Of a stretch of DNA of 64,000 nucleotides, positions 20,081 through 63,065 are shown piece by piece (position 1 is the stretch's first letter; the number at the start of each line of letters is the position of its first letter). This stretch comes from Brachionus manjavacas (taxonomy: Eukaryota; Rotifera; Eurotatoria; Ploima; Brachionidae). The position numbers were made by a program, and so were the translations under genes. The notes beneath the pieces were generated by a model that was not told where the DNA came from, ran no database searches, and was given only the letters and a program-made list of their open reading frames with translations. The stretch lies in assembly GCA_019054805.1 (NCBI GenBank), contig JAHQIY010000004.1:4774001-4838000 (forward strand), written 5' to 3'.

Positions 20081-21520
20081 TTATTCTTCAATCGGTTTAA
20101 ACCTTTTGAAAAAAAACAAAAATATTAAAAAAATTAAGCTTATTATAAAAAGAATAATTGAAACCAGAATTAATGGTTTGTAAATAAGGGGACCTGCGCA
20201 TAGAGGGCCAATGATGGTCCCAATACCCAAAATTCCCCTCTGTATTCCTTGACCAAAGCCTTGAAATTTATTGTCAATCATCTTGGTAAATAGTGAAGAA
20301 CTTGTGATAGCTATTGCTGGCAAGCCGATTACATCAAAAATGACAAATACGACAAAAGCTCCGAAAAATACTCCATCCGAATTTTGGTGCACTTCGATTG
20401 CAACTGCAGTGGAATTTTTAATATTAAAAGATTGATTTTTTGACTGAAAAGCTTTATCAAATTTATCCACAAAAGGCAAGAATATACAAGCAATTAAAAG
20501 GCCAATTATTATACTTAATAAACCAATTAAAAGTATAACTCTATCTTTAAATTTTTTTGATAAAATCCTTATAATAACAAAGCTGATTATAATGATTACT
20601 CCTCCACAGCAAAACAAAATTGAATTTTCCAACTCGTTCCAATCAAACATTATCTCTGTGAATGGAATAACCATTGTTTCCAAGCTTGTCTGATTAAAAT
20701 ATGTAAAAAATGTCATGGCCAGAAGCAAAAAAATCTCTGCTCGCCAAAATTGACTTTTTCTGGAATGAATTCTTGCGTTGTTTTCCGTTTGCTCGTCATC
20801 AGTTCTTTCCTGGTTAAAATTTAACTCTTGGAAAAGGAAAAAAAATATGAAAAAATACAGAGACCATGTAAAGGCCATGAAAAGTCCTGGAATTGATTTT
20901 CTATCAACCAAAAATTTTCCAAACAAATAAAAATTAACCTGTCTTAAAACGATATTAAATGCCGGACCGAACATTAGGCCAAATTGCCGAGAAGCCATGA
21001 CCATGGACAAAATTGCTGTTCTTTTTTTCTCTGAAGTTGTTCTAGCTATAAAAGCGAGTGCCACTGTTGAAGCCCCAATTGATATTCCACTTAAAGTTCT
21101 AGCTAGCAGGACAAAATATTTGTTTATGCCAAAAAAATAAAGAATATGACCAATTACGCCGAACACAATAGAGAAAAGCATAAAAATTTTATTTTTTTTA
21201 CATTTGTCTGATATTTTCCCCATAACTAAACCAGAGACAACTCCACTAAATGAATATGAACTAATCACCAAACCCATAAACGAACCACTTGCCGAATAGT
21301 CAAAATTTAAACGATCCCATAGAGTCGGAATAATCACAGCAAAATCAGTTCCAGTCATAAACGCGTAAAAACATAGGCAAAAATAATTTAGCCTTAGTCT
21401 TCCCTTGTCATTGGATTTTTCGTTACCATCTTTTAATTTACAAATATCTTCTTTGGAATTTATTACATTTTCAACAGATACTTCTATCATCCCTCTAAAA
21501 ATTAAAAAATATATCTTCAT
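20081..21520 (-). CDS. MFSD8/CLN7-like major facilitator superfamily transporter, single exon
   Basis: An uninterrupted 479-codon frame from an ATG at 21520. I count twelve hydrophobic segments, from FYAFMTGTDFAVIIPTLW to the final LFIISLIFLIFLFFF. The loop after helix 2 has GKISDKCKKNK, the MFS motif-A position. Helix 4 and its loop read ARTLSGISIGASTVALAFIA. The long loop between helices 9 and 10 carries two N-glycosylation sequons, Asn362 (NQS) and Asn369 (NST). Human MFSD8, a lysosomal MFS protein, is glycosylated at two sites in the same loop, which supports the assignment, as does the ~500-residue length. The substrate is not readable from sequence. It sits 309 bp downstream of MGAT1 on the same strand. 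It has no introns, unlike its complete neighbours, so retrocopy origin is possible, but the frame is intact. Confidence 0.78.
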   Translation of the reverse strand: MKIYFLIFRGMIEVSVENVINSKEDICKLKDGNEKSNDKGRLRLNYFCLCFYAFMTGTDFAVIIPTLWDRLNFDYSASGSFMGLVISSYSFSGVVSGLVMGKISDKCKKNKIFMLFSIVFGVIGHILYFFGINKYFVLLARTLSGISIGASTVALAFIARTTSEKKRTAILSMVMASRQFGLMFGPAFNIVLRQVNFYLFGKFLVDRKSIPGLFMAFTWSLYFFIFFFLFQELNFNQERTDDEQTENNARIHSRKSQFWRAEIFLLLAMTFFTYFNQTSLETMVIPFTEIMFDWNELENSILFCCGGVIIIISFVIIRILSKKFKDRVILLIGLLSIIIGLLIACIFLPFVDKFDKAFQSKNQSFNIKNSTAVAIEVHQNSDGVFFGAFVVFVIFDVIGLPAIAITSSSLFTKMIDNKFQGFGQGIQRGILGIGTIIGPLCAGPLIYKPLILVSIILFIISLIFLIFLFFFKRFKPIEE

Positions 21521-21829: not shown

Positions 21830-24161
21830 TTACTTGTAGCTCTGATCATATTTTGACCAATTTTTTTTCTGCTTAGGCGCGATGTATATCACCCGAGATT
21901 TGAAAAAAATTCTCACTACTCCTAAATAGGCAGTTCTTGCAACACCGCTCTAAATCAAAATATTTATTGGAAAAAATTTAAAAAATTTTCCACTTTTACT
22001 TTAAAATCATTCATTATGCCGAAATATTTAGCAAACTTCAAAAATTCCTGTTTTGAGTTGTAAATTATTAAGATTGATTTTTTATTTTTGGAATCTGTTG
22101 AGTTAGAAATTTTCAAATAGTCCACAAATGGCATCTCCTCAGAATTATCGTAAACATCAGCTAAATATTTGGGATCATACTTTTCTTTTCGTAGAGTTGT
22201 TGTGTCTATTTTGGACCAGTCAAGGGGATTTTTGTTAATGATTATAAGTTTCAAATAATTATCAAAAAATTGACCCCTTTTAAAAACCATAATTTCAATA
22301 TTACAAAAGCATTTTTTTAAATTTACATGCTAACGCCTTTTTTTGCATATTGAATTGCCATGTCAGTTCTTGAAATCTCTGGCCTTAAACATGACCGATC
22401 TTTTCTTTGTTCTGGTTCTCTCAGCCAGTCATCCCAGAAAGCCTGAGGCCATTTTGGTCTTAACTCGTCGATCCAAAGACTCCTAAGCATCATCCAACCT
22501 AAGCCCGGAAAAAAATCAGTCCTGTGAACCAATTCTAGAAATTTAAATTTTTTTCTAAATTTTTGGGTCAATAATTCAATATTCTAAATGCTACCTGATC
22601 TAGAAGTGTCTATTAAAGATTGTTTTCCATTATCATTCCATGCTGATACACAATAAAGAGATTTATCTTTCTCTAAAATCGACAACATTGATTTGAAATA
22701 ATCAAAAAAATCAACGGCAATATTTAGATCATCTTCGGTGATTATGACACTTGAAAAATTAAATTTCACAAAAACTTGATCCAAGGCCCATTTATAATGC
22801 CTGGATATTTTAAAATAGCCTCTCATGTGTTGGGCTATTGGACCTGTTTTCGATTTTGTAATATCTGTTTGATCAGGTTGTCTAATAATTGCGTATAGAT
22901 TATTTGAAAATTTATTTATTGAATTTGTGGTCTCTTGATGTCCACAGTCTTGACTAACAATAATTGGAAAATTATTTGAGTTAAAATTTGACGAGGCTCT
23001 TTTTTCAATTAATTGTCTCAAATGGTTTTCTACTGACTCGGGTCTATTACAAGCCATAACCAGAACAACTGTTTTGTCACTGTTTAAATCATTCTTTTTC
23101 TCTTGATGAGATGCTTTATTTTTTGAAGACAACCTTTTCTGGGATATTGAATGATGATTTTTTATTTCATTTTTTAAAACTATTGCATTTTTGTTTAGAT
23201 TATCAAGTGAATTCTCTAGTTTGCCAATACGATTTTCTATGTCTTTCTTTTAATAAAAATTTTTAGTTAATTTTTAATTAATTTTAAAAAAATTAAAATT
23301 CGAAATTAAACTATAAATTGATTACTCAAGGAAATGAAAATAGAGTTTTTATAATGAAAAAAATGTGCCTAAATTAATTATTGTTGTTTAAATATTAAAA
23401 GACACCTAGAGTTTTGTTATTAAAAATATTACTCTATCTTTCTTGTAAAAATTTTAATTATGTAGTTTAGATTTTTATCTAAAAAATAATAAAAATTGAT
23501 TATAAAGAAGTTCATTCAAATTTAAATTATGAAAAAAAGAACTTCAATATAAATATTCAAAACCAACAAACATGACATTTAATTTATCAAATAACTTTTT
23601 AAAAACATTATATTTAGAAAACACTATTTGTAGTCTATTTTTTGTCTCAAGTTTAAACTGAGTTACTATAAAAAATTTTTAATGACAAATCAATAAAAAA
23701 TTGTTTTTTTCAAAAAGGGTCAAAATGATAACTGCAATAAAGTTTTATAATTAGTACGGAACAGAATATTTTTTTATATTTCACAAGCTTAAATCTTAAA
23801 CATGTTTTAATTTTAAGAGGGAAATAATTTAGTATTTAATTAATAAAAATTTAAATTTTTAAAATTGAATTTCGAGAATTTTTGTCTTTAAAAATTTCTT
23901 TTCTTTAAAATTTAAACAAAGACTTACAAAATTTTTATTAGAAAGCTCATCGATCGGAATATTTTGAGGATCTTTCAAATTTGCTTGATTCGATAGAATA
24001 GCCGAAGTATTTATGTAAATTAAAAGTGTGAAAAAAATAATAATTAATACGATTATTAATTTTGAGCGAAAAATTCGTTTTATAATACTCAAGCAAATGT
24101 TACGAACAGATAGACGAGAGTTCTGAAAGTTCGAATGATCATCAATTGTTATATAATACAT
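21830..24161 (-). CDS. MGAT1: Alpha-1,3-mannosyl-glycoprotein 2-beta-N-acetylglucosaminyltransferase (GnT-I), 5 exons
   Basis: Exons in transcript order: 24161-23928, 23246-22595, 22534-22327, 22276-22000, 21949-21830. Sites are GT-AG and 1491 nt gives 496 residues (human 445). GnT-I transfers GlcNAc from UDP-GlcNAc to Man5 N-glycans in the medial Golgi, opening the hybrid/complex pathway. It has type II topology: a ~34-residue cytosolic head, a membrane segment at about 35-53, then a stem that looks coiled-coil at about 79-106. The GT13 domain starts near 137 ([10 protein letters not shown]) and shows [12 protein letters not shown], the metal-binding EDD at 249-251, [19 protein letters not shown] and AFWDDW at 327-332 holding the catalytic-base position. 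The final exon ([16 protein letters not shown]) matches the human C-terminus and shows that reading through exon 4 to the TAA at 21964 would be wrong. All key residues are present. Confidence 0.95.
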
Positions 24162-27656: not shown

Positions 27657-30047
27657 ATGTCTGGCAGCGATCACTTACCAAAGTTGAGCTTAAATTCTCC
27701 AACATCTTCGAATTCATCGAGCAGCCAATCTCTGGCTCAAACTGGCACATCGAAACAAAATAACATCCTAAATCCATCTAACTCAGTCACAATACCTACC
27801 ACGACCATATCTTCCCAATCCATAATGAACAACAATCACCGCTACGTTAAATTTAACGTAGGCGGACGTCTATTCACCACCAGTTTGGACACTCTTTTGA
27901 AGCAAGACAACATGTTTAGAGCTATGTTCTCGGGTCGAATTGATGTATGCACCGATATGGACGGCTATATTTTGATAGATCGAAGTGGAAAGCATTTTGA
28001 ATTTATTTTAAATTATTTAAGAGATGAGGACACTCACCAATATTTGAACCAATTACTAGATGACCAGATAAATGTACAATTCAATCCTTTGCTAGCATCA
28101 CAAAAATCCCACACCAACTCTGCTTCAGTTTCGAGTTCCGGCAGAAATTTTTTTTCTGATTTCGATTTATACGAGTTGCTGAAAGAGGCAAAATTTTACT
28201 GTATTGCTCCTTTGGTTAATTTAATTGAGCAAAAGTTAAAGCTCATCCAGCATTTGACAATTGTGCTCAATCAATCTAATTCAAATGAAACCTACTTTGG
28301 ATCGTCAATTGTAAGCATGGTAACATCCAAAACTGATTTACATAAAATTTTAAACTCAACAGATAAAGTAAAAAAATTAAACACTTCAATAGTCAATTTT
28401 GTGACCCAAGATGTCAAATTGTTTGTTTTTGTGAAGTTAAATTTTATGATCAAAAAAATAAGAAAGTTTTTTTAGATTTAGATTTTTTGTCCTATTAAAT
28501 AATACAATTTTAGCCGACAAGATTCTTGGTTAAATTTTACAAGCATGATGGAATGTGAGTAAAGTTAAGAACTTATTAAATAGATCATTTTGAAGGATAA
28601 AAATCTCATGTTACTAAATTAATTGATTCGAAGAACAAATTGAATTTTTTTTGAAATTTTTTTCTAATTAAATAACTTAAGAAAAAATACCGTAACTCGT
28701 GTTGAGGACTCTAAGAGTAAAGCCCAAATCAAACCTTTTTTCTATTAGAGTTATTTACATAGTTTATATGTTATAAAAATTAAAATTAAATTAGCTAGAA
28801 AATACCTTGAGTATGGAATATTTTCTAAAAATAAAGCAAAAATTTAACTTTTACTCTAACAAGAGTTTAAAATTTGGGCTTTAGTTTTGGAAAATATTCC
28901 ATATTCAAGGTATTTTCTAGCTAATTTAATTTTAATTTTTATAACATATAAACTATGTAAATAACTCTAATAGAAAAAAGGTTTGATTTGGGCTTTACTC
29001 TTTGAGTCCTCAAGACGAGTTTATAGTAATTAAATATTGTCAATTTTCTGACCAAATCATTATTTAATCTAAAAAAATTGTTTTGTTATATTAATTGAAA
29101 AGTTTATTCGGAAAAAAAATGTGACCAATTGGTCCCAAAATTGACCAGTGCCCAAAATTTAAGAAAATATTTTATTTACTTTTTTAATTCGGTTTTAGCC
29201 TTGTATTCGTTTTTTGATAAATAGACACAACAATAAGTATTCGTATACTAATAATTCGGACGACAATTTATTAAAAAATATAGAACTTTTTGAGAGAATG
29301 GCTATAAAATTTAGAAATCGTATAATGTTCATCAAAGACACAACAAGCAATGAGGAAATATGCTGCTGGTATTTTCACGGAAATGGAAAAAAACTAGCCG
29401 AAGTTTGCTGTACAAGCATTGTTTATACAACTGAGAAAAAACAGACTAAAGTTGAATTTCCTGATTCTAAAATTCTTGAGGAAATTTTTGTCAACGCTGT
29501 TCTTTTTGAGAGCAAAGAACAGTCATCGAATTCGAATAGTTCTACAATGATTAATGCTAATTTAAACGATGCACAAGGTTCTAGTCAGTACAACGATCCT
29601 GACTCAAGCGAAAGTACGGTTACTACACCAGTATTTCTGGAAGAACAAATGCCCAGGCTAAGTATAGGCTCAATTCAGCAGCAGTCATCCAACGGCAATC
29701 CAATAGTTAATAGTGCACTGAATGCTGTTTCATCAGTGATAAACAACATGAATTTGGCATCAGCTGGATCAAATTCATCCAATTTTTCATCATCAAACAC
29801 CACAAATCCTCAGATTCATTTAAGCCAGGTGCCGAGTCATCAGTCTTTTTATTCACAATCGAATCCGTCAGGGTCCGGTCATAACCATAGCCATTCAAAT
29901 TTTTGTCATAGCAGCAACAGTAATGCCACAAATTCAGTTAATAACAATTTGATATCATCTACATCGTCTAATTTGATTTCAATTGCTAATAGCTTAGCAA
30001 ATTCAGCTCGACGTGCCAATTCTGGGGCAAATAGCTCTTTAAGATGA
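27657..30047 (+). CDS. BACURD-type BTB/POZ (KCTD10/KCTD13/TNFAIP1) Cullin-3 adaptor, 2 exons
   Basis: Exons 27657-28367 and 29199-30047 (GTAAAA donor, TTTTAG acceptor) give 1560 nt and 519 residues. The splice joins KILNSTDK to [17 protein letters not shown], matching human KCTD13 across the junction; reading on to the stop at 28475 would be intron. A Ser/Asn-rich leader of ~60 residues precedes the BTB domain ([40 protein letters not shown], about 62-122; [12 protein letters not shown], 171-182). The conserved C-terminal domain holds [20 protein letters not shown] and [16 protein letters not shown]. The family recruits CUL3 ubiquitin ligase to RhoA and links to DNA replication. Unusual points: a ~43-residue insertion inside the BTB domain (about 126-168), and a long Ser/Asn-rich tail replacing the usual end with its PCNA-binding QQIVFKD motif. 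One ancestral gene probably stands for all three human paralogues. Confidence 0.93.
28691..29026. repeat. 335-bp near-perfect palindrome inside the BACURD intron
   Basis: The arms run from 28691 to about 28852 and back from about 28865 to 29026, centred near 28858 on ACTCTAACAAGAGT, with almost no spacer. Example: GAGTAAAGCCCAAATCAAACC at about 28715-28735 is mirrored by its complement at about 28980-29000. Mismatches are few and concentrated near the centre and tips. This looks like a foldback-type insertion. No clear target duplication was found. Confidence 0.85.
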
Positions 30048-37989: not shown

Positions 37990-38333
37990 CCTAATAAGGA
38001 ACTGAAAAAATGATTTATGAATAAATTATCTTTAACTTAAAGAATTTTCTTTCGAATAGATAGAAAATGCAAATTCATTAGCTTCTAGTTTGAACATAAA
38101 GCTATTATAGATTCCTTAGATTTAATCTATAAAAAGTTAAAATGAAAACAAAAAATAAAATTCATAGTAATCAGTTAACAAATTTCAGGAGCGTTTTTTT
38201 TCATATTCATATTTTGATTATACATAAATACATGATATTTTACACTTTTTTTTCTTAGATCTTGTATTTAAAAACCTGTACAAGAGACTATAAATTATAA
38301 TTTTAGATAAATTTTTGACTTTGAAATTTGAAA

Positions 38334-40660
38334 ATGGCTGATGTAAGTTTTTCGACTATTTTTGAGTAGAAAAACAATCAAAAAATAATGGATTTTTTTT
38401 TAAAGAAAAAAGGAAAGAAGAGAGCCCAAAGAGCTACTAGCAATGTATTTGCAATGTTTGAACAAAGTCAAGTTCAGGAATTCAAAGAGGTAAGAATTGA
38501 AATATTTTAAAATAAATTAAACAAAACAAGACAAATTTATAAGATTTTATTTTACTTTTTATTGTGAAAAAAATGATTTAAAATCGATAAATTTTTAACT
38601 AAACTATCCAAAGGCTTTCAATATGTTTGACCAAGACAGAGATGGAATTATAAGTGTTGATGATTTAAAAGAGATTTACACATCTCTAGGTTAGTTGAGA
38701 CAAGAATAAGCTTTATTTTGAAGTGTTTTTTTTTTAATTTTTGATTTTTTTTTTGATTTTAAATTAGGTGTATCTGTAAAAAAACAAAACTTAAAAACAA
38801 CAAGCCTAAATTTAATTAAGTATATTGTACAAGATAGGCATAATTTCGAGCCGAATTCTATTTTTCAATACATTTTTTTTAATCAAAATGATTGTTAAAG
38901 GCATTCGGTCTTATGGATCAAGACAGAGATGGAGTAATCAGTGTCGATGATTTAAAAGAAGTTTACAATTCATTGGGTAATTGAAGGCATCAAATTAGAC
39001 ATCCCCTTTTACCTTTGCTCACTTTTTTCAAATTACACAAACCCTGATATGATAATACTAAGACAATGCACTTTTTAACTATTTCCTAGAATACCCGTTA
39101 AAAAAAACTTCCCTTTTTTCCAGAAAAACTTGCATGAATGATCTAATGAATGATGAATTAAATGTTTCAATTGATTTTGATTACTTTTAATTTTGTTTTG
39201 AATGAAATTAATCAGAAAATAAACAATAAATAATTTTAATTTTCAATTTGATTTTTTAGGCAGAATGCCAAAAGATGCTGAATTAAAAGCCATGGTGGAG
39301 GAGGCCCAAGGACCAATTAACTTCACAATGTTATTGACTTTATTCGGAGATCGTCTAAACGGTAAACCTTAATTGATTTAAATTAAGCCATGATGAGCCT
39401 GAAATGCATGAATATATTTAACTTTTCCCCTCCTTATTTTTGTTTTAAACCATGAATGAAACCTTTTGACAAATAGGAACTGATGAAGAAACAGTAATAA
39501 TGAATGCTTTTAAGTTGTTTGATGATAATGGATCTGGAATTATAAATTCCCAAGCGTGAGTATTTATTAGATAAAGAATAAACAACAGATTTATTAGTCA
39601 AAACGATATTAAAAATAAAAAAATAAAAATTATTTTAAATCTGTTGAATCAATTCATTGCATCCATCCATTACCCTAAATCAAAAATTTGAATTCCCTCT
39701 TTGCATTTCAAAATAATGTAATCCTTTTACCCCTTAACCAAGCCTATACAGTATTTTTCGACCCTTTTAGTTTATTCTAGCTTACTTTTATTCAAAAAAT
39801 TAATTTTATTTTTTGGTTCCAATTAAAAATAAACAGGCACTGATGAAGAATCACATATCATGAATGCTTTCAAATTGTTTGATGCTGATGCCAAAGGAAC
39901 ATTACACCGTGATGTGTAAGTATTTTCAATTTTAATACAATCATTTATTAAGACACAACATTCGCTTATTTATTTTTATCTTGAGTTTTTTTAGAAAAAA
40001 GTCATCAATTTGAACAAAAATTATTTAATTATTTTATTGATAAAAATTGAATGAATTATCTTGTTAGGTTAAGAGAAATTCTCACAGCTCAAGGAAATCC
40101 AGCTGAAAGACTAACAGATCAACAAGTAAGATAACAGAAAAAAAATATTCTAGTCTTATTATTAGCTTATCTGTAAAAATTGGCTTACCACTTTGAAAGC
40201 TAGTAGTACCTTTAATTTTGACGAATTCTTCCCTAAAAAATGGATGCAGAGAAAAAAAATTCTTGTTTTTATTTATTTTTAATAAACGCTTTTTCCCTTG
40301 TGCTTAAAAAGGTTGCGTGAAGTTTTAGTTCACCAAGGCAAACCAGATGAACGACTTACCGATCAAGAAGTAAGAGATCTGATATGATCGTGTATTAATC
40401 ATTACTAACACTTAATAGTAAAAAAATGTTAACAAAAAAATAAAATTTAATTGAACTAAAGCATCAATTGATTGCATGTATTTCTATTTAGATTGATTTT
40501 AATTAAGTAGTTATACTATGAATTTAATTTAATTCTAATCGTTTTAACTTTTTACAAGTTCAACCAAGTTCTTGAAGGTGCTCCAATCGATAACAAAGGC
40601 AATATGGATTATGCAACATTCGTTCGTATAATCAAAAGAGGCAAACAAGACGATGAATAA
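38334..40660 (+). CDS. MRLC: Myosin regulatory light chain (smooth/non-muscle type), copy 1, with three mutually exclusive exon pairs
   Basis: Exons: 38334-38342; 38406-38489; 3a 38614-38689 or 3b 38901-38976; 39260-39361; 5a 39477-39555 or 5b 39837-39915; 6a 40068-40125 or 6b 40312-40369; 40559-40660. Any valid choice totals 510 nt, 169 residues (human MYL9 172). The N-terminus [18 protein letters not shown] carries the Thr-Ser pair phosphorylated by myosin light chain kinase and ROCK in homologues. EF-hand 1 ([12 protein letters not shown] in 3a, [12 protein letters not shown] in 3b) keeps metal-ligand positions 1, 3, 5 and 12. EF-hand 3 (5a/5b) has lost position 12, as is usual for this family. 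GPINFTM and the [18 protein letters not shown] end match MYL9/MYL12. MRLC binds the myosin II heavy-chain neck and controls motor activity. Each alternative exon is 3n+1 nt with the same phase as its partner. Poly(A) signal AATAAA at 40788-40793. Confidence 0.95.
38614..38976 (+). other. Mutually exclusive exon pair 3a/3b of MRLC copy 1 (EF-hand 1)
   Basis: Exons 38614-38689 and 38901-38976 are both 76 nt with the same split-glycine phase at the donor (GTTAGT, GTAATT). They encode 26-residue alternatives that differ at six positions (AFNMF versus AFGLM at the start). Using both or neither would shift the frame of exon 4, so the sequence itself argues for one-or-the-other splicing. The corresponding pair in copy 2 is 52793-52868 and 53080-53155. 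Confidence 0.88.
39477..39915 (+). other. Mutually exclusive exon pair 5a/5b of MRLC copy 1 (EF-hand 3)
   Basis: Exons 39477-39555 and 39837-39915 are both 79 nt, each opening with GTDEE and sharing IMNAFKLFD. They differ mainly in the loop: [11 protein letters not shown] in 5a, [11 protein letters not shown] in 5b. Donors are GTGAGT and GTAAGT. In copy 2 they are at 53657-53735 and 54017-54095. Confidence 0.88.
40068..40369 (+). other. Mutually exclusive exon pair 6a/6b of MRLC copy 1
   Basis: Exons 40068-40125 and 40312-40369 are both 58 nt, encoding [19 protein letters not shown] and [19 protein letters not shown]. Both end in phase 0 at GTAAGA donors and join the same last exon. In copy 2 they are at 54248-54305 and 54492-54549. 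Confidence 0.88.
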
Positions 40661-46904: not shown

Positions 46905-48185
46905 AAATTTTTGTTGGCTCTAGATCATTTACATTTGAAAAAAATAATACACGGTATTGTACTAGTTTTAAAAATTTATAGACAAATGTGGATACATTAC
47001 TTTCTTAAAGCTTTCGATAAAGTTATAAGAGAAATCATGCTTAAGGACATGATAGGGAAAGTAGAACCAGAAATATGGAGAGTACTGAAAAAATACTATC
47101 AAGACTCGTGGGCCCTTGCACAAAACAAAGACGAAATTTCCTCAATATTTAAAACATCAGTGGGAGTAAAACAAGGTGGTCCACTCTCACCAAAACTTTT
47201 CTCGATATACGTTGAAGACCTAATAACTGAAATTATGAAAACAGACTTAGTTGCAGAAATTGAAGGAATTAAAACGGGTATCCTAATGTATGCGGATGAC
47301 CTACTACTCATAACTGAATCGACCAAGAAAATGAAAAAAGTATTACAAATGTGCGAAGAATTTGGGATTCGTAATGAAATAAAATTTAACCCATCTAAAA
47401 CTCAAATAATGCGGATAAATGGAACAAAAAAAGACGAAGTTGAACTTGAATTATGCGGTGAGGAAATAGAGTGGGTCAAAAAAATAAAATATTTAGGTTT
47501 TTGGATAGATGGTAAAAGTTTTAGCAAGGAACACTTGAGAGAAAGAAGAATGAGTACTTGGAGAGCTTTTTACCTATTAAAAACTAACTTAGACATTAAT
47601 AGTAAGCAGTTAAATCCGCACTTGAAAGCTTACTTACTTAAAACTTATGTAAGACCTATAACTTACTATGGAATAGAAAATTGCAGGATTAGCAAAAGTG
47701 AAAAAAAGAAAATTCAAACAATGAAAGGCCTAATGGTAAAACAAATGCTATCATTAGACAAAAGGTCCCGTACAACAAATCTTCTGTACGCACAAAATAT
47801 AGAACCTGTCGACTCTAAAAAAAAAAACTAAACTGAAATTCGCCAATAGATTAATAGAAAATGAGTTTACTCAAAAAATACTTCAAAAAAGAGAAGCAAA
47901 TTTAACCCACACCAGCACATTTTTTGAAGAAGTAAAAGAAATACTAGGGTGTCGCGACACATTGCAAAAAGAAAATTTGAATAGTTATGTAAAGAAAATT
48001 AAAATGAAAGATTTGGAAAACAGCAGGAATGGTATATGTGAGACAATAAAATTCTGCCTTGATAACCTGGAGGAGAGAAGAGAGCAATTAAAGTTAATTA
48101 TTAAAGCGTACATACCTTGAAATTGACAAGATTTTTACCACGATTTAAAATGCTACGTAATTAGATAAAAAAAAAAAAAAACAAC
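46905..48185 (+). mobile_element. Non-LTR retrotransposon, 5'-truncated, reverse transcriptase nearly intact
   Basis: A 306-codon frame (46911-47831) covers the RT palm and thumb: LKAFDKV, then VGVKQGGPLSPKLFSIYVED, the catalytic YADDLLLI near 47290, IKYLGFWID, and LKTYVRPITYYGIEN. It ends early in an A11 run (47817-47827). From that point another frame continues for about 97 codons (KLKFANRLIENEF to LKLIIKAYIP, stop at 48120), so the break looks like one slippage error. An A-rich tail follows at about 48165-48185. This RT type (GVKQGGPLSP, YADDLLL) differs from the jockey-like elements elsewhere in the window. No endonuclease is left. Confidence 0.85.
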
Positions 48186-52168: not shown

Positions 52169-55034
52169 CCTAATAAGGAACTGAAAAAATGATTTATGAA
52201 TAAATTATCTTTAACTTAAAGAATCTTCTATCGAATAGAGAGAAAATGCAAATTCATTAGCTTCTAGTTTGAACATAAAGCTATTATAGATTCCTTAGAT
52301 TTAATCTATAAAAAGTTAAAATGAAAACAAAAAATAAAATTCATAGTAATCAGTTAACAAATTTCAGGAGCGTTTTTTTTCATATTCATATTTTGATTAT
52401 ACATAAATACATGATATTTTACACTTTTTTTCTTAGATCTTGTATTTAAAAACCTGTACAAGAGACTATAAATTATAATTTTAGATAAATTTTTGACTTT
52501 GAAATTTGAAAATGGCTGATGTAAGTTTTTCGACTATTTTTGAGTAGAAAAACAATCAAAAAATAATGGATTTTTTTTTAAAGAAAAAAGGAAAGAAGAG
52601 AGCCCAAAGAGCTACTAGCAATGTATTTGCAATGTTTGAACAAAGTCAAGTTCAGGAATTCAAAGAGGTAAGAATTGAAATATTTTAAAATAAATTAAAC
52701 AAAACAAGACAAATTTATAAGATTTTATTTTACTTTTTTATTGTGAAAAAAATGATTTAAAATCGATAAATTTTTAACTAAACTATCCAAAGGCTTTCAA
52801 TATGTTTGACCAAGACAGAGATGAAATTATAAGTGTTGATGATTTAAAAGAGATTTACACATCTCTAGGTTAGTTGAGACAAGAATAAGCTTTATTTTGA
52901 AGTGTTTTTTTTTTAATTTTTGATTTTTTTTTTGATTTTAAATTAAGTGTATCTGTAAAAAAACAAAACTTAAAAACAATAAGCCTAAATTTAATTAAGT
53001 AAATTGTACAAGATAGGCATAATTTCGAGTCGAATTCTATTTTTCAATACATTTTTTTTAATCAAAATGATTGTTAAAGGCATTCGGTCTTATGGATCAA
53101 GACAGAGATGGAGTAATCAGTGTCGATGATTTAAAAGAAGTTTACAATTCATTGGGTAATTGAAGGCATCAAATTAGACATCCCCTTTTACCTTTGCTCA
53201 CTTTTTTCAAATTACACAAACCCTGATATGATAATACTAAGACAATGCACTTTTTAACTATTTCCTAGAATACCCGTTAAAAAAAACTTCCCTTTTTTTC
53301 CAGAAAAACTTGCATGAATGATCTAATGAATGATGAATTAAATGTTTCAATTGATTTTGATTACTTTTAATTTTGTTTTGAATGAAATTAATCAGAAAAT
53401 AAACAATAAATAATTTTAATTTTCAATTTGATTTTTTAGGCAGAATGCCAAAAGATGCTGAATTAAAAGCCATGGTGGAGGAGGCCCAAGGACCAATTAA
53501 CTTCACAATGTTATTGACTTTATTCGGAGATCGTCTAAACGGTAAACCTTAATTGATTTAAATTAAGCCATGATGAGCCTGAAATGCATGAATATATTTA
53601 ACTTTTCCCCTCCTTATTTTTGTTTTAAACCATGAATGAACCCTTTTGACAAATAGGAACTAATGAAGAAACAGTAATAATGAATGCTTTTAAGTTGTTT
53701 GATGATAATGGATCTGGAATTATAAATTCCCAAGCGTGAGTATTTATTAGATAAAGAATAAACAACAGATTTATTAGTCAAAACGATATTAAAAATAAAA
53801 AAATAAAAATTATTTTAAATCTGTTGAATCAATTCATTGCATCCATCCATTACGCTAAATCAAAAATTTGAATTCCCTCTTTGCATTTCAAAATAATGTA
53901 ATCCTTTTACCCCTTAACCAAGCCTAAACAGTATTTTTCGACCCTTTTAGTTTATTCTAGCTTACTTTTATTCAAAAAATTAATTTTATTTTTTGGTTCC
54001 AATTAAAATTAAACAGGCACTGATGAAGAATCACATATCATGAATGCTTTCAAATTGTTTGATGCTGATGCCAAAGGAATATTACACCGTGATGTGTAAG
54101 TATTTTCAATTTTAATACAATCATTTATTAAGACACAACATTCGCTTATTTATTTTTATCTTGAGTTTTTTTAGAAAAAAGTCATCAATTTGAAAAAAAA
54201 TTATTTAATTATTTTATTGATAAAAATTGAATGAATTATCTTGTTAGGTTAAGAGAAATTCTCACAGCTCAAGGAAATCCAGCTGAAAGACTAACAGATC
54301 AACAAGTAAGATAACAGAAAAAAAATATTCTAGTCTTATTATTAGCTTATCTGTAAAAATTGGCTTATCACTTTGAAAGCTAGTAGTACCTTTAATTTTG
54401 ACGAATTCTTCCCTAAAAAATGGATGCAGAGAAAAAAAATTCTTGTTTTTATTTATTTTTAATAAACGCTTTTTCCCTTGTGCTTAAAAAGGTTGCGTGA
54501 AGTTTTAGTTCACCAAGGCAAACCAGATGAACGACTTACCGATCAAGAAGTAAGAGATCTGATATGATCGTGTATTAATCATTACTAACACTTAATAGTA
54601 AAAAAATGTTAACAAAAAAATAAAATTTAATTGAACTAAAGCATCAATTGATTGCATGTATTTCTATTTAGATTAATTTTAATTAATTACTATGAATTTA
54701 TTTTAATTCTAATCGTTTTAACTTTTTCCAAGTTCAACCAAGTTCTTGAAGGTGCTCCAATCGATAACAAAGGCAATATGGATTATGCAACATTCGTTCG
54801 TATAATCAAAAGAGGCAAACAAGACGATGAATAAATCAAAATTGGTTTTACACATACCTTTCATTTTTTAATTAGAAATAGAATTAAAATTTGTTTTAAG
54901 CCCAACAATTTATTTATTTTAATTGTTTAAATTTTTTTTTCATCTAAGAAAAAATATTTGTCAATAAATATTTTCAAATTAATTTTTTTTTTTACAGTTT
55001 CAATTAAGAGAGGCAATACGCCAAGTATCTTTAT
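52169..55034 (+). repeat. Segmental duplication, copy 2 (contains MRLC gene 2)
   Basis: Matches 37990-40858 at an offset of about 14,178 bases, differing by scattered substitutions and a few short indels, one of which removes several bases from the intron before the last exon. At the right end the shared GAGGCAATACGCCAA joins a plus-strand RT fragment, whereas in copy 1 it joins a minus-strand one. Confidence 0.95.
52512..54834 (+). CDS. MRLC: Myosin regulatory light chain, copy 2, same three mutually exclusive exon pairs
   Basis: Exons: 52512-52520; 52584-52667; 3a 52793-52868 or 3b 53080-53155; 53440-53541; 5a 53657-53735 or 5b 54017-54095; 6a 54248-54305 or 6b 54492-54549; 54733-54834. 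Length (169 residues), splice sites and phosphorylatable RATS motif are as in copy 1. I found only three coding differences from copy 1, all changing the protein. In exon 3a the EF-hand loop is [12 protein letters not shown], replacing the near-invariant sixth-position Gly with Glu. Exon 5a begins GTNEE instead of GTDEE. Exon 5b has Ile for Thr just after the loop. The alternative exon 3b is unchanged, so transcripts using 3b would keep a normal first EF-hand. Poly(A) signal AATAAA at 54963-54968. The gene looks intact; whether it is expressed cannot be seen. Confidence 0.93.
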
Positions 55035-56338: not shown

Positions 56339-57612
56339 GGGTGAGGTTTAAAGTCAAATAAAAATCTGGGAAACTCATACGAAAAAAAATTTTTTTTGCC
56401 CAACCGATAAAATCATAAAAAAGACTTTTTTTTCTGGGAAAGTAGTACAAAAAATTCTTAAATCTGGTAAAGTCATATAATACTCGGGTAAAGTCAAACA
56501 AAAATAATTTTTTTTTTCAAATTTTTTAAGAATTTTGCAAGCGTTTAATTTAAATTTTTCAAATTTATTATTCAAGTTTACTACAAAATAAGCTTGCAAA
56601 ATTGTTTGGAAAAAAAATTTTGAACAAAAGAAAGTCTCTTTTTTTAATTTGTTTTTTTTTCTTTAAAAAGATTTTATTATTGCATCATTTTAAATCTCCC
56701 CACCCTCTTTCTTACTTTGAAAAAGAAAAATACTTAGTGAATAGATTTTTTGAACAAGTCATCGATTTTGAAATAAGCTTTAAGTATAATTTAAAAACTA
56801 ACTATAAAAACGACTGAAAAATTTAAAAAAAATTATAGATTTTTTCAAAAAGCCATAAATATTAAAATGAAAATTGATTCAAACTTGTGAAAATCAAAAT
56901 GCTTATAATGATTACTTTATGTCTTTGAAAAGTTGGGTATTTTTGAAAAATGCGTTAAATTTGAATCAATGAATTCAAAAGCTCCTTGTTGGTTTCCCAA
57001 AGTGGGTAAAATGCTGTTGAAAGACTGTGAAAGAGTAATTAAATCGAATAAACTTGAATTGTTAAATGATTCAAATGATGGTTCAAATGACTTATATATT
57101 TTTAAGTATAAACATAAAAATGGAGATATTGATAATGTAGAAATAACAAATGAGGACTGTAGTTGTATTGAATGCAATAAATGTTCTTGTTCACCCTATT
57201 TGGATAAAGGTATCTGTAGCCATATTTTGGTTGGCTGCGTTATGATAAAAAAAAAATACAAAGGTTTAAATTTGGAATCAAAATTTGTAAATAAATCAAA
57301 AAAGAAAGTAGGAAGATATAGCTTAGCTAAGTTTTGTTTAAAAAAAGATTAAAGTTATTTTTGTATTCGTTTATTTCTGTGTCAATTTTTTATCCGTAAT
57401 TTAATTAAAAATCAATAAATTTTGTATTAAATAAAAAACAAAATTATTTTTGTTTGACTTTACCCTAGTATTATATGACTTTACCAGATTTAAGAATTTT
57501 TTGTATGACTTTGCCAGAAAAAAAAGTCTTTTTTATGATTTTATCGGTTGGGCAAAAAAAATTTTTTTTCGTATGAGTTTCCCAGATTTTTATTTGACTT
57601 TACCCTTTACTC
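56339..57612 (+). mobile_element. Mutator-like element (MULE), internally deleted, with 9-bp target duplication
   Basis: Terminal inverted repeats of about 170 bp (56339-56510 and 57440-57612) share AAAGTCAAATAAAAATCTGG and GGGAAACTCATACGAAAA. Both sides are flanked by TATTTATGC (56330-56338, 57613-57621), a 9-bp duplication typical of Mutator. Between the arms an open frame to 57352 (about 139 codons) encodes a SWIM-type zinc finger: CSCSPYLDKGICSH fits C-x-C-x(n)-C-x-H. SWIM domains sit C-terminal to the catalytic core of MULE transposases. The DDE core is missing, so the element is non-autonomous unless the catalytic part is supplied elsewhere. Long arms, target size and SWIM domain agree. 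Confidence 0.88.
56933..57352 (+). CDS. SWIM zinc-finger protein fragment inside the MULE
   Basis: The open frame extends upstream to a stop near 56911. The first in-frame ATG is at about 56969 (SMNSKAPCWFP), so the true start is uncertain. Visible features are a basic N-terminal half (KVGKMLLKDCERVIKS), a cysteine cluster ECNKCSCSPYLDKGICSHIL that fits the SWIM consensus, and a lysine-rich end. In intact MULE transposases this follows the DDE core, which is absent. It may be a residual exon or a stand-alone DNA-binding protein. It is not broken within the span seen. Confidence 0.6.
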   Translation: MGIFEKCVKFESMNSKAPCWFPKVGKMLLKDCERVIKSNKLELLNDSNDGSNDLYIFKYKHKNGDIDNVEITNEDCSCIECNKCSCSPYLDKGICSHILVGCVMIKKKYKGLNLESKFVNKSKKKVGRYSLAKFCLKKD

Positions 57613-57889: not shown

Positions 57890-58810
57890 AAATCAAGCAT
57901 ATGCTAATCTCTCACTCAACTCAAAAAGTCGATTCGAGACTGTAAGTAGATTAAGTTTATTGAAGGCTTCTTGGTGCATAATATTGGAGGGGATATCATA
58001 TTTGAGCTTCAAAATAGATCGAACTGCTGAATTTTGAATAACTTGTATTTTTTTAATGTTAGTTTCTGAGAATGAATTTAAACAAGGAAAAGAATAATCC
58101 AAAATTGATCCTATTAAGGATTTGTAAAAATTACCAAATGTTTCTGGTTTAAGACCCCATTTTCTATTTGAAAGATATTTTATTAAAATTAAGTCTAGAG
58201 TTACAGCGTTCTTTTAATTCATCTACCATTGGACTAAATGTAAGTTTTGATTCTAACGTGATTCCTAAAAATTTCACTTTTTCCTCGTTATTTAAACTGT
58301 TACCATTAATTTTAAGGTTAAGATTGGTTTTAACTTTTGTTTTTTTCTCAAAAATCATGTAGCCTGACTTTTCAACAGATATTTTCATTTTCCATTTAAA
58401 AAGCCATTTTTCAATTTCGTTTAGATACTTATTAATCACGTTTTCAAGATTCCCTATCTTTTTGAAAATAAAAAAAGTAGCCAAATCATCTGCAAAAAGA
58501 AGAGAGTACTGGCAGTTTGTTTTGTTCCTTTTTGGTATGTCATTTATAAAAATGCTAAAAAGAATTGGACTAATTACTGACCCTTGTGGGACTCCTGCTT
58601 TAATAGGGTATTGATCACTCAGATGACCATTTACATTTACTCTAAAAGATCTTAAATGCATAAATGATCTTATCCAATAAATAATATAAGGAGGTAGGTC
58701 AATTTTAATTAGCTTGTAAATTAGTCCATTGTGCCAAACTCTATCAAAAGCTTTAGAAATGTCAAAATATAGAAAACATACTTTTTTCTTAAATATATAG
58801 GTTAAGGGGT
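57890..58810 (-). mobile_element. Jockey-type retrotransposon, 5'-truncated, RT largely readable
   Basis: Reading leftward from about 58800: CFLYFDISKAFDRVWHNGLI, then YKLIKIDLPPYIIYWIRSF, VNGHLSDQYPIKAGVPQGSV, the catalytic LLFADDLATFF (about 58480), KWKMKISVEKSGYMIF and VKFLGITLESKLTF. A break near 58165 is followed by a second frame ending ASNRLFELS-type sequence (58102-57893). At most two disruptions separate the parts, so this is the best preserved member of its family here. It lacks the endonuclease and the RT N-terminus. Confidence 0.85.
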
Positions 58811-61735: not shown

Positions 61736-61889
61736 ATGTTAGGGGTTTATGAACCTGACACACCTTTCACACTAGAAGCCTGTGGTCGATCCTCTGAATA
61801 TACTGGCGATACATTGTCAAATGCTGATTTATACACAAGAACAAATACAGAGCCATTAAGTCAATGCATTACGAACAATAGGTTTTACA

Positions 61890-63065
61890 AAAAAAATAGT
61901 AATGAAATGTTTAGACTGCTCTCTTTTCAGACACGTTATTTATTCAAAATTAAATGGAATTTAATTTTGAATTCACATAAAAAATTTGAATTCCAAAATT
62001 TAATTCACATATTAACTCAATCGATATGTGACGGTTTTAACAAAGGTTTGCTAACTGGTGCTGTATTTTTCGATGTCAAACAAGCTTTCGATAAAACATC
62101 CCACTCAGGTATTATCAATAGGCTAAACGAAATAAACTTCAGCGAACTTCTAACAAAATGGATCTCAGACTTTCTTTCAAATCGATTTTTCAGGTCAGTA
62201 TCAACAATCATCTTTCAAGTACCAAACCAATCAAATGTGGTGTACCGCAAGGTAGCTCTATCTCCCCAACGCTCTTTATTTTATACTTCAGTAAAGTCGT
62301 AAACAACTTACCGAAACACATCAAGGTAGCAATATTTGCAGACGATCTCTGTATTTGGATAACATGTAAATCCACAAGATTAATCGAAGAAAATCTTCAA
62401 CCAGCTATCAATAAAATAATCGAATTCTGTAACACCTGGGGCTTCACCATAAACATCTCAAAATTTTGCTACACCACCTTCACAACTGCTGGTCACCGCA
62501 AAAATTTCCACATTAAGTACAAACTGAAGCTTACAATTTTAAATCAGGATATTCCAATTGATCCGTTTCCCACCTTTCTTGGAATCAAGCTTGATCCTAA
62601 GTTATCCTTCAAACCTCACCTCATAGAGCTTGAAAACAAACTAAATTCAAAAACCAACTTAATCCGTCGTATCAAAAATTTCAGATGGTCAAACTCTCTA
62701 TCAATTAATATTATGCTGTACAAATCACTCATTCGCTCACTTTTTGATTATTGTTTCGTGATTCTAAATAATGGCACCGAGAAAATCAGTTCATCCCTCC
62801 AAAAAATCCAAAATAAAATTTTGCGAATCATCAAGTACTTCCCCTACAAAACCTCGATCCGTACAATCCACAAAGTTCTCAAACTCGAAACTATTGAAGA
62901 ACGTGCAAACAATCTATTCCTCAAATTCCTAACCAACAAATCCAAACAATCATTAATCGCAAAAGAGATCGAAATATACATGTTATCAGAACGTCCAAAC
63001 TTAAAAAGATTTATAACTCCATTTGATAAAATTATTGTCTAATTTAAAACTAATTTTTTGTAGAC

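Follow-up and report, generated by a model that had tools for sequence, protein, structure and literature searches.

A rotifer muscle-type myosin regulatory light chain gene with three tandem exon pairs that are probably used as alternatives

Vertebrates obtain isoforms of the myosin regulatory light chain (MRLC) from separate MYL genes. Alternative splicing is known for the essential light chain, in Drosophila Mlc1 and vertebrate MYL6. These genes share with the rotifer gene described here the use of alternative exons in a myosin light chain, but they encode the other light chain, and we know of no set of three internal EF-hand cassettes in them. Mutually exclusive exon clusters are well known in myosin heavy chain (Mhc) genes (PMC3912159, PMC6537884). 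In these reports and in that on Lethocerus Mhc (PMC5660136), the Mhc genes, like the rotifer MRLC gene, carry tandem homologous exons in several clusters and produce combinatorial isoforms of a myosin II subunit; in the Mhc systems the heavy chain is spliced, whereas in the rotifer it is the regulatory light chain. OGDH exons 4a and 4b also arose by duplication, are mutually exclusive and belong to a calcium-related part of the protein, as described in PMC7969005. In OGDH, distant branch points enforce exclusion, and the intron is 118-131 nt long in birds and mammals, whereas the corresponding introns of the MRLC gene span 186-281 nt and have short AG-free zones. Unlike OGDH, both members of the first rotifer pair, exons 3a and 3b, retain DQDRDG at the start of the EF-hand 1 loop. 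Tarantula muscle MRLC belongs to the same family; PMC2674065 describes two RLCs of 56% identity from two contigs of 196 and 235 aa, which suggests separate genes. The initial annotation of this DNA knew of no triple-cassette MRLC gene, and our literature search, which covered few subscription papers, likewise found no report of mutually exclusive exon clusters in an MRLC. None is reported in the accessible portions of PMC2674065, PMC5963113, PMC6537884, PMC3912159, PMC7969005, PMC9177970 and PMC5840707, and the words 'rotifer', 'Brachionus' and 'light chain' do not occur in the main text of PMC3912159.

The window, the whole stretch of DNA that was analysed, comprises 64,000 nucleotides of Brachionus manjavacas (G000:C4:4774001-4838000) in a genome of 114 Mb and 61 contigs. 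On its plus strand lies a complete MRLC gene of 169 aa (gene A, 38334-40660), with ten exons distributed over seven coding positions. Positions 3, 5 and 6 are doubled, and the exon lengths are 9, 84, 76/76, 102, 79/79, 58/58 and 102 nt, the two members of each tandem pair being alike in length. The exons, in window positions, are as follows.

38334..38342, plus strand: exon 1 (M-A-D), donor GTAAGT; with its donor, 18 of 19 bases match the first exon of a third copy of the gene (copy C, below)
38406..38489, plus strand: exon 2, constant; carries RATSNVF, also found in the best PDB MRLC chains
38614..38689, plus strand: exon 3a, EF-hand 1, phases 0-1; EF-hand match E 1.6e-5; 3a-like cassette in P0008 and B. 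plicatilis P0028
38901..38976, plus strand: exon 3b, EF-hand 1, phases 0-1; EF-hand match E 3.6e-4; 3b-like cassette in P0007 and others
39260..39361, plus strand: exon 4, constant, from the gene model
39477..39555, plus strand: exon 5a, EF-hand 3 region, phases 1-2; 5a-like cassettes in P0001, P0010 and P0015
39837..39915, plus strand: exon 5b, EF-hand 3 region, phases 1-2; 5b-like cassettes in P0002, P0013 and P0012
40068..40125, plus strand: exon 6a, between EF-hands 3 and 4, phases 2-0; cassette 6 is the sole difference between P0007 and P0009
40312..40369, plus strand: exon 6b, between EF-hands 3 and 4, phases 2-0; one of the two alternatives to which the same P0007-P0009 contrast applies
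40559..40660, plus strand: exon 7, constant, EF-hand 4 region and stop, from the gene model

The product is, judged by its sequence, a muscle-type myosin regulatory light chain, with predicted binding to the heavy-chain neck and a predicted effect of phosphorylation on activity. Among the best 60 of 402 structure-database matches, the top one pairs residues 4-168 with MRLC 12B at E 4.4e-57, and the first calmodulin follows at E 2.9e-27. The RATSNVF of exon 2 aligns with the RATSNVF of 9z3w, and we take the motif that bears it to be the phosphorylation site, as in the rest of the MRLC family. As read from the sequence, the last residue of the EF-hand 3 loop is not acidic in either member of cassette 5.

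All nine introns between genomic neighbours are GT-AG, and both members of every pair have equal phases and valid splice sites. The paired exons encode homologous but diverged protein, with 20/26 (3a/3b), 15/27 (5a/5b) and 13/19 (6a/6b) identical residues. Chance resemblance is ruled out, as none of 100000 shuffles of one member reaches the observed similarity in any of the three pairs. All six cassette exons are 3n+1 nucleotides long, and exons 1, 2, 4 and 7 are 3n. Omitting or doubling a cassette therefore breaks the frame, so that productive mRNAs would hold one member per pair. When each cassette was skipped or used twice, in one background each, all six wrong combinations reached their first stop after 39-140 residues. 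Loss of frame is thus what penalises wrong splicing of gene A. On these points the initial annotation holds: it had named the gene an MRLC, described the three tandem pairs with their splice sites and phases, estimated the identities by eye at exactly the computed values, noted the frame-shifting lengths, and took the phosphorylation site to stay constant, and exon 2 is indeed undoubled. Its proposal of up to eight MRLCs stands only as the coding capacity of each locus, since all eight cassette combinations of gene A keep the 169-aa frame with a single terminal stop, but no relative is seen with more than three combinations and 3a is rare among them.

We read this locus, with a probability of about 0.85, as a muscle-type MRLC gene of a rotifer in which three tandem exon duplications have created diversity, their members being used as alternatives, that is, as mutually exclusive exons. 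The choice of 3a or 3b would exchange the helices around the first EF-hand and keep its metal-binding loop. Choosing 5a or 5b would exchange the degenerate third EF-hand, and choosing 6a or 6b the stretch ahead of EF-hand 4. All isoforms would have in common the exon with the N-terminal phosphorylation site, exon 4 and the C-terminus. The members may be selected by cell-type splicing factors acting at competing sites, while frame loss and decay would eliminate the errors. The isoforms might then tune the seating of the light chain on the heavy-chain neck and on the partner head, rather than its phosphorylatability.

Proteins of related animals bear on this reading. A homologue search over 5.8 billion proteins gave 1701 matches, of which the best 120 were taken, and two regional searches added lists of 34 (aimed at 3a) and 29 proteins. 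Among the best 120 of 1701, many of the closest relatives have 165-169 residues, and their frames lie complete on contigs that mostly measure 0.9-1.6 kb. For the nine proteins compared in pairs below, the longest contigs listed are 917-1551 b long and contain the entire frame, as spliced RNA would. Because they are short and hold the whole frame, these contigs look like assembled transcripts. For the cassette comparison we used 21 proteins, each 169 residues long and bearing the exon-2 signature, with cassette bounds set by the exons of the window gene (cassette 3, residues 32-57; cassette 5, 92-118; cassette 6, 119-137). P0001 and P0002 differ at 14 residues (94-117), all in cassette 5; P0007 and P0008 at 10 residues (34-54), all in cassette 3; and P0007 and P0009 at 6 residues (121-134), all in cassette 6, with no difference elsewhere in any of the three comparisons. 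The differences between P0008 and P0009 are confined to cassettes 3 and 6. The cassette-5 contrast is repeated by P0010 and P0013 (10 differences in cassette 5, 2 outside the cassettes) and by P0012 and P0015 (12 in cassette 5, 4 in cassette 6, 3 outside). These comparisons support alternative use of each of the three cassettes in relatives, as well as the earlier suggestion that the cassettes change independently, since a protein pair differing in one cassette only was found once for each cassette. Paralogues or assembly chimeras may nevertheless lie behind the relatives' isoforms, which are known from proteins alone.

In full-length relatives, each position also shows one member. Each of the 26 full-length monogonont-like proteins (165-169 aa) has one EF-hand 1 loop, one cassette-5 signature and one cassette-6 signature, a count that is biased because out-of-frame products would be too short or too unlike to be listed and because the list covers the best 120 of 1701 matches. 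This set was derived from 131 proteins, 37 of them with the signature and 30 of those with at least 160 aa; P0107, P0112 and P0114, which lack rotifer features, and P0050, which is cut short, were dropped from the 30. The nearest named relative of the window protein among the best 120 of 1701 matches is the short P0028 of B. plicatilis, in which 3a is joined to 3b with three extra residues. It differs from the window gene at 2 of 57 residues over exons 1-2-3a and at 1 of 86 over 3b-4-5a, which points to a Brachionus close to B. plicatilis, and we read the join as a mis-predicted gene model. Four further proteins, P0122-P0125, depart from the family sequence right after exon 4, which would fit a retained intron. 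Bdelloid, Seison and acanthocephalan MRLCs also appear among the matches listed (for example P0024, P0039, P0045 and P0059). In viral contigs, 7 stretches of DNA matched a pattern and none of them encodes a relative.

The cassettes of relatives can be assigned to types. Cassette 3 of P0008 is nearer 3a (20 vs 16 of 26 residues), and that of P0007 is nearer 3b (25 vs 20 of 26). In cassette 5, P0001, P0010 and P0015 are 5a-like, with 19, 19 and 18 of 27 residues matching 5a vs 14, 16 and 15 matching 5b, and P0002, P0013 and P0012 are 5b-like, with 19, 19 and 20 matching 5b vs 15, 14 and 15 matching 5a. Cassette 6 favours neither member clearly, the matches to 6a and 6b being 10 and 11 of 19 in P0007 and 10 and 13 in P0009. 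Pairs 3 and 5 thus look orthologous between species. Because their members sort by type, both duplications are probably older than the divergence of these rotifers. The 3a type is rare, being found only in P0008 among the 26 full-length relatives, and in P0028. A search aimed at 3a listed 34 proteins and no further 3a-type sequence.

Alternatively, the pairs might be alternative with a loose and unregulated choice, in which the exon spliced first wins, frame loss clears the errors and the isoforms mean little functionally. We consider this unlikely, though a real contender. No enforcing device was found, and 3b greatly exceeds 3a in the relatives listed, both of which a loose choice would accommodate. 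The introns between pair members measure 211 (3a-3b), 281 (5a-5b) and 186 nt (6a-6b), and intron 1 is 63 nt. AG-free zones extend 50-79 nt before the six cassette acceptors and 36-79 nt over all nine introns, so branch points are probably close to their exons. Introns between members that are well above 63 nt, together with such short AG-free zones, speak against hindrance by distant branch points as in OGDH, and no distant branch point enforcing exclusion was found at the introns of gene A. Duplex tests of nine intron pairs for competing intron pairing gave, at the lowest, 2 and 5 of 100 shuffles with energy at or below the observed one, which is not notable among nine. The pyrimidine fraction of the acceptors is 0.48-0.64 in the cassettes vs 0.72 in exon 4 and 0.68 in exon 7, and exon 2 also has 0.48. 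Within our main reading, the best guess is that exclusion works through weak competing sites picked by trans-acting factors, with frame loss clearing the errors. What weighs against a loose choice is that the cassette 3 and 5 types persist in proteins only 73-82% identical to the window protein, where neutral noise would hardly keep them.

The initial annotation treated the locus as one gene that makes its isoforms by splicing alone. This description needs correction, as the genome holds three loci of the same structure, among which the 5' region and first exon come in two kinds, as well as two diverged MRLC-like frames. 'Splicing alone' is too simple because of these three near-identical loci, of which the initial annotation had reported gene A. 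Apart from gene A, the relevant features are the following; positions without a contig name are those of the window.

37990..38333, plus strand: 5' flank common to A and B, 344 nt, with no match at copy C
52512..54834, plus strand: copy B, whole gene, ten exons; bounds, splice dinucleotides and 4 of 8 combinations checked
52512-52520, 52584-52667, 52793-52868, 53080-53155, 53440-53541, 53657-53735, 54017-54095, 54248-54305, 54492-54549, 54733-54834, plus strand: exons of copy B
G000:C4:4887953-4890306, minus strand: copy C, 73 kb away from gene A, running from a start codon at 4890306 to the end of the stop at 4887953

Copies A and B share 98.7% identity along 2873 nt, a stretch that takes in 344 nt ahead of the gene and about 200 nt beyond it. 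Between A and C the identity is 98.1% over exons and introns alike, beginning near the start of exon 2 and ending at the stop codon; the upstream region, intron 1 and 3' end of copy C are unrelated to A. Exon 1 is an exception: it reads ATGGCCGAT/GTAAGT in copy C vs ATGGCTGAT/GTAAGT in gene A, both encoding M-A-D, and blastn of the two 5' regions returns this exon match (E 0.002) and no match longer than 19 bases. The 3' flanks of A and C share no match longer than 16 bases. In addition, a 15-base AT-rich word occurs at 38021-38035 and upstream of copy C, about 310-370 nt before the start codon (E 0.002); it could be chance or a control element. An assembly artefact is unlikely as the source of the copies, which occupy separate positions on one 8.9 Mb contig and have distinct outer flanks. 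A DNA search of the genome found only short matches beyond A, B and C. The two diverged MRLC-like frames lack introns; one at C1:5846166 is 174 residues long and has 56% identity, and one at C1:1145399 has 50% identity with a stop inside the matched stretch.

Apart from exon 1, the near-identical body of A/B and C thus lies between unrelated flanks, as is characteristic of gene conversion. Either the A/B type seems to have replaced the body of an older paralogue, giving copy C, or the replacement ran in the opposite direction. A mosaic of site patterns was not detected, with 17 runs among 15 A-only and 23 C-only sites and 5690 of 20000 shuffles giving as few or fewer. Perhaps the body was transferred in a single block, or perhaps a partial duplication came to lie under the first exon of an older paralogue; conversion is a candidate explanation. 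The unit is present three times under two different 5' regions, and either recent duplication or gene conversion would account for the likeness of the bodies. Reverse-transcriptase (RVT_1) frames lie near the gene copies, at 46911-47831, 58164-58661 and 61736-63042, and may have had a part in the duplication of the MRLC gene.

Because this genome contains three near-identical copies and the flanks of one are unrelated, exchange between MRLC copies is plausible in this lineage. It could therefore be argued that the relatives' isoforms are separate, recently homogenised copies, each fixed for one member, and that the second members in the window are leftovers of unequal exchange. This is improbable. 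In A, B and C alike, both members of all three pairs are present, their splice dinucleotides intact and their frames open, and the 3a/3b and 5a/5b contrasts sort by member across species, which points to both members having been kept since before the split.

Relative to A, copy C changes the protein only by T to I in 5b, and copy B by the same change, by G to E in the EF loop of 3a and by D to N in 5a. The I common to B and C is probably derived, because P0058 of B. calyciflorus has T in 5b. Both exon changes peculiar to copy B alter residues, and the two peculiar to copy C in exons 2-7 are silent. The EF-loop G of 3a (38645 in A; 52824 in B, which reads E) is present in all 63 relatives checked, and exon 3a of copy B may be relaxed or decaying. 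That one member of a pair is in general a decaying, unused duplicate, as these changes of copy B could hint, is likewise improbable, since A and C lack them, the own changes of C are silent, and 3a survives in B. plicatilis and in the species of P0008, so that such decay would fit copy B at most.

Matches to the motor and tail of class-II heavy chains coincide at eleven loci of the genome:

C8, 3790849-3878293: six heavy-chain loci
C22, 273465-302165: three heavy-chain loci
C7, 3995333-4001220: one heavy-chain locus
C16, 1452402-1461968: one heavy-chain locus

Two of the eleven were read. In the C8 gene (G000:C8:3875700-3878600), a tandem exon pair lies just 3' of the P-loop exon, both members followed by GTAAGT, and this pair looks mutually exclusive. 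The C22 gene shows a single exon of this kind. The heavy chain thus combines many gene copies with at least one exon pair. Monogononts might, tentatively, have reversed the arthropod plan, diversifying the heavy chain mainly by gene copies and the MRLC by a splice code of three switches in which the N-lobe and two parts of the C-lobe are each tuned separately, with two promoters, bodies homogenised by conversion, and all eight isoforms made and differing between coronal, body-wall and mastax muscles. We hold this extended picture to be possible but doubtful as a whole. The rotifer gene suggests that phyla may differ in which myosin subunit is diversified for muscle by gene duplication and which by exon duplication.

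Studies of light-chain isoforms usually compare entire, different genes, a comparison in which the contributions of EF-hand 1, EF-hand 3 and the region between EF-hands 3 and 4 to speed, resting state and stability cannot be told apart. An MRLC gene that swaps these three parts separately and keeps the phosphorylation exon constant would be a natural mutagenesis panel. Gene editing in a rotifer has been reported (PMC10395877), and the MRLC switch should therefore be testable in a whole animal. Elsewhere in the window, neighbouring frames encode an MFS transporter (20081-21520), a GNT-I family glycosyltransferase (22584-23132) and a BTB domain protein (27657-28475). An inverted repeat at 56349-57602, with 169-nt arms that are 97% complementary and 916 nt apart, is perhaps a DNA transposon or a foldback element.
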